From Bacteroidales bacterium (GTDB lineage: Bacteria; Bacteroidota; Bacteroidia; Bacteroidales; Marinifilaceae): a stretch of DNA of 64,000 nucleotides. The notes below the pieces were generated by a model, which was not told the DNA's origin, did no database searches, and saw only the letters and a list, made by a program, of their open reading frames with translations. The stretch is from positions 1-64,000 of the forward strand of contig SUWY01000012.1 in the NCBI GenBank assembly GCA_015061245.1. The letters are read 5' to 3'. Made by a program: the position numbers and the translations under genes. Of this stretch, positions 48,705 to 61,240 are shown one piece after another. The first letter of the stretch is position 1. Every line of letters starts with the position of its first letter.

Positions 48705-48740
48705 ATAATTAGGAATTAGGAATTAGGAATTAGGAAAAAT

Positions 48741-49000
48741 CGTGCAAGGTGAGAGCAGAAGCCAAATTTATTTGGATTATGCCGAGCCGCCGCCGATTTT
48801 GCGGCATTGCGAAGCAATGGCGAACACTCGTGCAAGGTGAGAGCAGAAGCCAAATTTATTTGGATTATGCCGAGCCGCCGCCGATTTTGCGTCATTGCGC
48901 AGCAATGGCGAACACTAGTGCAAGGTGAGCGCAGAAGCCAAGTTTACTTGGATTATGCCGAACCGCCGCCGATTTTGCGGAAACACGAAGTGTTTGCGAA
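48741..49000 (+). repeat. Tandem repeat R88, three copies (88, 88, ~84 bp)
   Basis: cgtgcaaggtgag.gcagaagccaa.ttta.ttggattatgccga.ccgccgccgattttgcg starting at 48741, 48829 and 48917. Confidence 0.95.
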
Positions 49001-49622
49001 TTAGGAGTTAGACTGAATTAGATATATACCGCTTTCAAGTCCCCCTTATAAGTGAAAGCAAGCGCAGCGCGCTGAACGAAGGGGGATTTAGGGGGTTGGT
49101 AAAACAATCAAATTCAAGCAAATCCACAAGTTGTCATTAAAGTGATAGTTTGCTTTACAGATAATGAGTGGTAAGCGCGATAAGATTTGCGCAGATTAGT
49201 TAGGAGTGAAGAGTTAGGAGTTAGACTGAATTAGATATATACCGCTTTCAAGTCCCCCTTATTAGTGAAAGCAAGCGCAGCGCGCTGAACGAAGGGGGAT
49301 TTGGGGGGTTGGTAAAACAATCAAATTCAAGCAAATCCACAAGTTGTCATTAAAGTGATAGTTTGCTTTACAGATAATGAGTGGTAAGCGCGATAAGATT
49401 TGCGCAGATTAGTTAGGAGTGAAGAGTTAGGAGTTAGACTGAATTAGATATATACCGCTTTCAAGTCCCCCTTATTAGTGAAAGCAAGCGCAGCGCGCTG
49501 AACGAAGGGGGATTTAGGGGGTTGGTAAAACAATCAAATCAAAGCAAATCTACAAGCTTTCAAATAGAGAAAGCGTTGCTTTACAGATAATGAGTGGTAA
49601 GCGCGATAAGATTTGCGCAGAT
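49000..49622 (+). repeat. Tandem repeat A, three copies, period 213 bp
   Basis: actgaattagatatataccgctttcaagtccccctta... at 49012, 49225 and 49438. Confidence 0.95.
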
Positions 49623-49627
49623 TTGCT

Positions 49628-50010
49628 TGGTAGATGGCGAAGCCGAACATATCTAATTCAATCAGATAAGAATACAAGAAGTAATAACATTAAATTGAAT
49701 TGAATTAGATAAATACCACTTAAAAGCCCCCTTATTAGCCGTAATGAGCGCAGCGAATAAGGCGAAGGGGGTTTGGGGGTTGGTAGATGGCGAAGCCGAA
49801 CATATCTAATTCAATCAGATAAGAATACAAGAAGTAATAACATTAAATTGAATTGAATTAGATAAATACCACTTAAAAGCCCCCTTATTAGCCGTAATGA
49901 GCGTAGCGAATAAGGCGAAGGGGGTTGGGGGTTGGTAGATGGCGAAGCCGAACATATCTAATTCAATTAGATAAGAATACAAGAAGTAATAACATTAAAT
50001 TGAATTAGAT
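49628..50010 (+). repeat. Tandem repeat B, two full copies and a third ending at the ffh ATG, period 152-153 bp
   Basis: tagatggcgaagccgaacatatctaattcaat... at 49631, 49784 and 49936. Confidence 0.95.
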
Positions 50011-56250: not shown

Positions 56251-56433
56251 TGTTGTTTATTGTACTCTTTTAAATTACTAAATTCGCATACAAAAATATA
56301 AAAAAAAGTGAATAGTTAGAAGTGAACAGTTAGGAGTTAATTATCAACTCCTAACTTCTAACTCCTAATTTGACAGTAGATAAAGTGTAGAGATGAATTT
56401 GTATTAAAATGATAACTCGAAGTAACTAAAAAT

Positions 56434-59277: not shown

Positions 59278-59345
59278 TTGAAAAGGGGAAAGGTGGAGGG
59301 GAAAAGGTGAGAGGAGAGAGGTGAAAGGGAAAAGGTGAAAGGTGA

Positions 59346-59383
59346 AAAAATGGTTGAATTTGCGAGCAAATTCAACCATTTTT
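59346..59383. terminator. Bidirectional terminator, left copy
   Basis: AAAAATGGTTGAATTTG-cgag-CAAATTCAACCATTTTT, 17-bp perfect stem. Confidence 0.9.
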
Positions 59384-59445
59384 AACTCCTCACTGTTCAC
59401 TCCTCACTGTTCACTCCTCACTCTTCATTGTTCACTCCTAATTCT

Positions 59446-59500
59446 TTATTGTAACAACTCTTTAACCTTTGCTGAGATTGCTTTATTGTAAGGTTTGTTG
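59446..59500 (-). pseudogene. yqeY 3'-end remnant 1
   Basis: Minus strand encodes ...NKPYNKAISAKVKELLQ*, matching the C-terminus of the intact GatB/YqeY protein. Confidence 0.75.
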
Positions 59501-60990: not shown

Positions 60991-61240
60991 TCTCTGTTGC
61001 GTGAATTCCTCGGTGGCTCAACGTTTAAATATGATTGATTGAAAAGGGGAAAGGGAAAAGGTGAGAGGTGAAAAAATGGTTGAATTTGCGAGCAAATTCA
61101 ACCATTTTTAACTCCTCACTGTTAACTCCTCACTGTTAACTCCTCACTGTTAACTCCTCACTCTTCACTCTTCACTCCTCACTGTTCACTCCTAATTCTT
61201 TATTGTAGTAGCTCTTTAACCTTTGCAGAGATTGCTTTTC
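60991..61240 (+). repeat. Right direct repeat flanking the lipoprotein island
   Basis: tctctgttgcgtgaattcctcggtggctcaacgtttaaatatgattgattgaaaagg... matches 59230 onward. Confidence 0.9.
61072..61109. terminator. Bidirectional terminator, right copy
   Basis: Same 17-bp stem and cgag loop as 59346-59383. Confidence 0.9.

Follow-up and report, generated by a model that had tools for sequence, protein, structure and literature searches.

A three-unit array of a probable, so far undescribed, palindromic and non-coding mobile repeat of Bacteroidales

The window analysed in this work is a stretch of 64,000 nucleotides from the draft genome of a Bacteroidales bacterium, and at 48.7-49.0 kb it contains a tandem array of three hairpin-bearing units. 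We consider it probable that this array belongs to a non-coding, non-autonomous, palindromic mobile repeat of Bacteroidales, so far undescribed, whose + strand DNA would fold, be recognised by an enzyme and expand by unit lengths. Within this reading, the dispersal of the repeat, the preservation of its structure across loci, one empty site and the change in unit number between sister species were directly shown. A literature search, with most subscription journals outside its scope, returned no paper describing the repeat and none relevant for its core sequence.

The 88-bp triplication claimed in the sequence-only reading was borne out both by TRF, which reported a tandem array at 48740-48980 (period 88, 2.7 copies, 94% match, score 433), and by base-for-base reading. 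The units, all read on the + strand, begin at 48742, 48830 and 48918, and the positions, stems and loops given in that reading for hairpin 1 (48762, 48850 and 48938) and hairpin 2 (48805, 48893 and 48981) were exact. The array is preceded by a left flank at 48707..48739 in which an AATTAGG heptad tract, detected by TRF, runs into AAAAA. This flank is also present at other copies in the same genome, where AATTAGGAAAAATC / AATTAGGAAAAATCG lies 5' of most array-first copies. The first unit shows a 7-bp outer stem that the earlier reading did not include, formed by the left arm AAAATCG (48736..48742) and the right arm CGATTTT (48794..48800), according to the sequence itself, a covariance-model match at 48735-48801 and the covariation of the arms across 62 genomes; the left arm is absent from copies 2 and 3, which lie within the array. 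Between the arms lies the core of unit 1 (48743..48793), in which the consensus fold and the pair counts define TGCAAG, a GG/CC stem with a tandem GA mismatch, GCA/TGC and a variable hairpin. Hairpin 1 of this unit (CCAAATTTATTTGG, 48762..48775), in which pairs at the base and at the tip covary, forms the end of a longer, imperfectly paired stem (GCAgAA..TTaTGC, GG/CC, and one G-C/A-T covarying pair). Hairpin 2 of unit 1 (48805..48819) is CATTGC-GAA-GCAATG, of the internal type with a GNA triloop. Unit 2 (48830..48917) is also internal, as supported by the sequence, TRF and BLAST, and its hairpin 2 reads CATTGC-GCA-GCAATG. Unit 3 (48918..49000) is of the terminal type, with hairpin 1 as CCAAGTTTACTTGG and hairpin 2 as AAACAC-GAA-GTGTTT; its tail is diverged and ends at about 49000, and the right end of the array (GCGAATTAGGAG, 48996..49007) is a linker tied to AAACAC-type hairpins.

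Its neighbours are a 219-aa ORF, with a sub-threshold match to DUF7523 only, on one side and ffh (SRP54) on the other. The same intergenic stretch contains two other tandem repeats (49001-50006; 213 bp x 2.9 and 153 bp x 2.5), with CCCCCTTAT...AAGGGGG palindromes, that extend up to ffh, and much of this sequence is also found in the sister species G001 (L098). Heptad-based tracts (AATTAGG, AGTGAAC, TAACTCC and variants) recur in the window, at 77-144, 48707-48736, 56306-56341, 59282-59452 and 61108-61200, often bordering hairpin units.

The unit is a dispersed repeat of a Bacteroidales-wide family and not a local curiosity. Its core has no further match in the 64-kb window, with 0 matches in shuffled sequence, and the 2.2 Mb draft genome to which the window belongs gave 47 BLAST matches and 52 matches to a covariance model built from 18 distinct units of that genome; G001 gave at least 127 model matches. 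A DNA pattern scan of GTDB recovered at least 116 stretches, nearly all of them titled as Bacteroidales groups. With a family covariance model (40 divergent copies, 66 positions, 21 pairs), matches were found in 26 of the 149 genomes of an order-level sample, 11 of which had at least nine, and in a phylum-wide sample of 297 only one of the 296 other genomes had a match. Carriage by phages or plasmids was also considered and rejected, as only one viral contig in 2.9 million matched, plasmids gave one partial match, and annotated phages gave no match to the repeat. The single viral contig and the lack of any annotated phage with the repeat indicate that it is chromosomal. In several genera, variants of the element are located just 5' of the start of a GCGGAAATAGCTCAG tRNA-like gene, with direct repeats of GCGGA on both sides (L034, L035 and L036, on contigs C33, C12 and C9 of the window's genome, and L108, L118 and L162).

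The family follows the pattern AA-N6-TGCAAGCCGARYGCA-[hairpin]-TGCYGAGGCGCAGC-N6'-T. A complete element is an imperfect palindrome in which a 7-bp outer stem, free in sequence but complementary, surrounds a fixed TGCAAGCC..GGCGCAGC core with the tandem GA mismatch and the variable hairpin, usually followed by a second, downstream hairpin with a GNA triloop. The earlier reading had suggested that secondary structure is maintained in this repeat, and collecting homologous units across Bacteroidales, measuring their covariation and building a covariance model upheld pairing with double changes. In the 18 units of the window's genome 98% of pair cells were paired, with a covariation score of 0.399 against 0.162 when shuffled and at most 0.073 when slid; in the 40 divergent copies 94.5% were paired, 15 of the 21 pairs had changed on both sides and the score was 0.447 against 0.152 when shuffled, these shuffle controls being themselves inflated by sequence relatedness. 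Among the matches listed, the outer arms comprised 52 distinct 7-mers in 78 genome-arm combinations from 62 genomes, and their Watson-Crick pairing was 69-96% per position, compared with 29-74% when shuffled, and dropped to 8% at position 8. As the search pattern set only the core and left arms and hairpin unconstrained, the complementarity of the arms is not a circular result, and, with arms that change from locus to locus and yet remain reverse complements for exactly 7 bp, the covariation that preserves the structure is genuine. Family-wide maintenance of secondary structure is therefore strongly supported.

Such stems could also stay perfect without any selection on the fold if the element were an old dispersed repeat in which one arm serves as template for the other when replication switches templates. 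This template switching has been described as generating, preserving and repairing the stems of hairpins, with multi-base changes that compensate each other (PMC8794818). Any arm sequence would suit it, and the scarcity of G-U or A-C intermediates agrees with it. However, it would not be expected to end the outer stem at a fixed length, whereas in many genomes pairing breaks off abruptly after 7 bp and position 8 is recurrently mismatched, nor to leave the conserved GA mismatch and an AA bulge uncorrected, and mobility is shown independently by the empty site described below. Both the abrupt end at 7 bp and the persistence of the GA mismatch are arguments against template switching as the sole cause, and we regard this quasipalindrome correction as a possible explanation, clearly less probable than a mobile element.

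The strongest example of structure maintenance put forward in the earlier reading was copy 3, in which nearly the whole stem of hairpin 2 is replaced and pairing is kept. The pairing is indeed present, but the replacement corresponds to a separate module type and not to stepwise mutation. Among 58 sequences of hairpin 2 collected from the window's genome and G001, the GCGAATTAGG end (TTAGG) followed AAACAC stems in 22 of 25 cases and the unit linker in none, whereas CAYTGC stems were followed by GCGAACAnTA-GTGCAAG, that is, by the next unit, in 19 of 27 cases and never by TTAGG (22:0 and 0:19, p about 4e-12). As the AAACAC stem is tied to the downstream linker, the replaced stem marks the end of the array; copy 3 is the array end, carrying an alternative terminal hairpin 2 module, and this linkage rules out the stem swap as compensatory evolution. 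True single-step compensation does occur at hairpin 2, with a change from CATTGC/GCAATG to CACTGC/GCAGTG in six copies, and stems broken without compensation, which had been named as evidence against a maintained fold, amount to 6 of the 58; the loop is a GNA triloop in 48 of all 58 sequences. Units have one of two heads (GGTGAG..CCGAACC or CCGAAYG..CTGAGGC) and one of two tails, and the four possible combinations all occur, indicating that the units are modular. A longer nested variant is present in a number of units of the window's genome.

Evidence of mobility comes from a genus related to that of the window, in which a copy is located 5' of a yraN-like gene (identified by eye) in G200 and is absent from G208 and G209. 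Where the copy is missing, the sequence is CTCTTC-TGCAAAGATAG-GGATTT, and in the occupied site the element lies between two copies of TGCAAAGATAG, so that this one empty/occupied comparison reveals a target-site duplication, a MITE trait, in the form of an 11-bp direct repeat. This repeat is the -7 promoter box TATCTTTGCA. Across genomes, GCAAAnnTA was found within 70 nt downstream of 17 of 91 copies, compared with 12 of 1301 nearby windows (p 5e-14). A second empty site was sought in the genus of G080, where the flank was not syntenic. Inside the duplicated ends, the 7-bp outer arms form inverted repeats whose sequence changes from locus to locus. Since arms include stop codons and promoter boxes, we considered that they might be inverted copies of the host target; this was ruled out because the genus of G200 shows hardly any change in the arm pair, in contrast to the variable host box on the right, which assigns the arms to the element and makes the host box the target. 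On the other strand, the left arm of the element in this genus (L217, L243 and relatives) reproduces a -7 promoter box, TATCTTTGC. Some 19 nt upstream of this box the hairpin has a TTTG-like stretch, so that copies may carry an outward promoter.

At sites orthologous between the window's genome and G001 the number of units differs by whole units. The site of the window is occupied in G001, and the array is therefore older than the split between the two species. An insertion-sequence-like segment interrupts the first unit there: the array (L280, on C52, and L098, on C13) is cut after GTGCAAGGTG by a segment that starts with TGTCTTGTCCTAAAATAGG and encodes a transposase-like ORF, as judged by eye.

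The earlier reading left the choice between RNA and single-stranded DNA open. A small RNA or an untranslated-region element selected for its fold would account for covariation of RNA type, for the better folding of the + strand as RNA (mean z -3.0, compared with -2.3 for the other strand) and for a slight excess of G-U pairs. This excess (G-U over A-C cells, 39:17), considered as a test between RNA and DNA, weakens to 26:17 (p=0.22) once one column in which a Prevotella subfamily predominates is left out. Orientation to the flanking genes, based on simple ORF calling, is even over the four contexts (16/16/10/9), which argues against a cis-acting RNA, and a search of Rfam with 2.2 kb around the array, at E up to 1, gave no match to a known RNA family, with only chance microRNA matches elsewhere. 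The free sequence of the outer stem, the tandem copies and the insertion at promoter boxes also speak against a structured RNA, which we consider unlikely. The mechanistic origin that the earlier reading allowed for keeps, in the form of template switching, the limited plausibility given above. Folding is better for the + strand than for the - strand under DNA parameters as well as under RNA parameters, which points to one strand as the folded one, whether as RNA or as DNA. Extra-stable DNA mini-hairpins have loops of the GNA class (PMC4686876), and the extraordinary stability in DNA of GNA triloops such as that of GCGAAGC favours folded single-stranded DNA, the form in which the element probably acts.

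Several known repeats resemble this one in part. Like REP elements and REPINs, it consists of short, dispersed, intergenic palindromes in many copies with a conserved folded form, and the single-stranded hairpin logic would fit a REP element moved by a RAYT, a Y1 tyrosine transposase of the IS200/IS605 type. However, it is longer (66-90 nt), has the 7-bp outer stem of free sequence and shows a negative association with Y1 transposases, which occur in 3 of the 11 copy-rich genomes and in 99 of the 138 others (p=0.004). PF01797 has no match in the genome of the window (G000, 83.5% complete), and no Y1_Tnp was found in it or in G087, G080, G127, G147, G167, G171 and G193. The end tag that defines REPs, GTAG or CGTC (PMC3733652), is absent from the consensus of 40 diverse copies, in which the base of the stem is TGCAAG/GCAGC. 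With no end tag and with Y1 transposases under-represented in copy-rich genomes, we have rejected RAYT-driven movement, to which we assign very little probability. The BrickBuilt MITE of Porphyromonas gingivalis, built from tandem repeats of 23 nt plus a leader and a tail subunit and reported to have promoter activity (PMC4596501), is likewise intergenic, belongs to Bacteroidales and has a variable number of repeated units, but it is found in one species, in contrast to the order-wide 83-88 bp double-hairpin palindrome described here, and the TRF period of 88 excludes their identity. PINSR, compared by description only, is a non-coding intergenic repeat of the same order, with 188 bp and about 180 copies in Prevotella intermedia/nigrescens, without terminal inverted repeats of the MITE type and reported as limited to one Prevotella group (PMC4755523). 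Its reported range is narrower than that of the Bacteroidales-wide family described here. Integron attC sites conserve structure over sequence, contain bulged bases, form arrays and are recombined by the integron integrase as a folded bottom strand. The repeat shares with them the structure conserved over sequence, the bulged bases, the arrays and, presumably, the folded single strand, although this is a resemblance only.

In the explanation that we prefer, the mobile element, the + strand would fold as single-stranded DNA and a putative trans-acting enzyme would recognise it by its shape, with insertion occurring where the flank matches, in several lineages at the GCAAAnnTA promoter box. In the genus of the window, unit-length recombination would then have multiplied the units into arrays, with a reassortment of the modules of hairpins 1 and 2 and with copy 3 as the array end. 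More tentatively, the family could be an order-wide class of gene-less mobile hairpins that move as folded single-stranded DNA through a putative non-Y1 recombinase, insert at -7 boxes (TAnnTTTGC), add a second -7 box with their copies and re-wire transcription, the array units being cassette-like without carrying genes.

The family model provides a searchable description of a seemingly common, unannotated repeat of gut and rumen Bacteroidales, and the repeat is a natural case for testing whether covarying stems result from selection on a DNA fold, from a function as RNA or from template switching. The putative recombinase would be a findable target. If the more tentative proposal is true, each copy could supply a second -7 box and re-wire transcription, and insertion at promoter boxes, if general, would make this repeat a source of promoter change.
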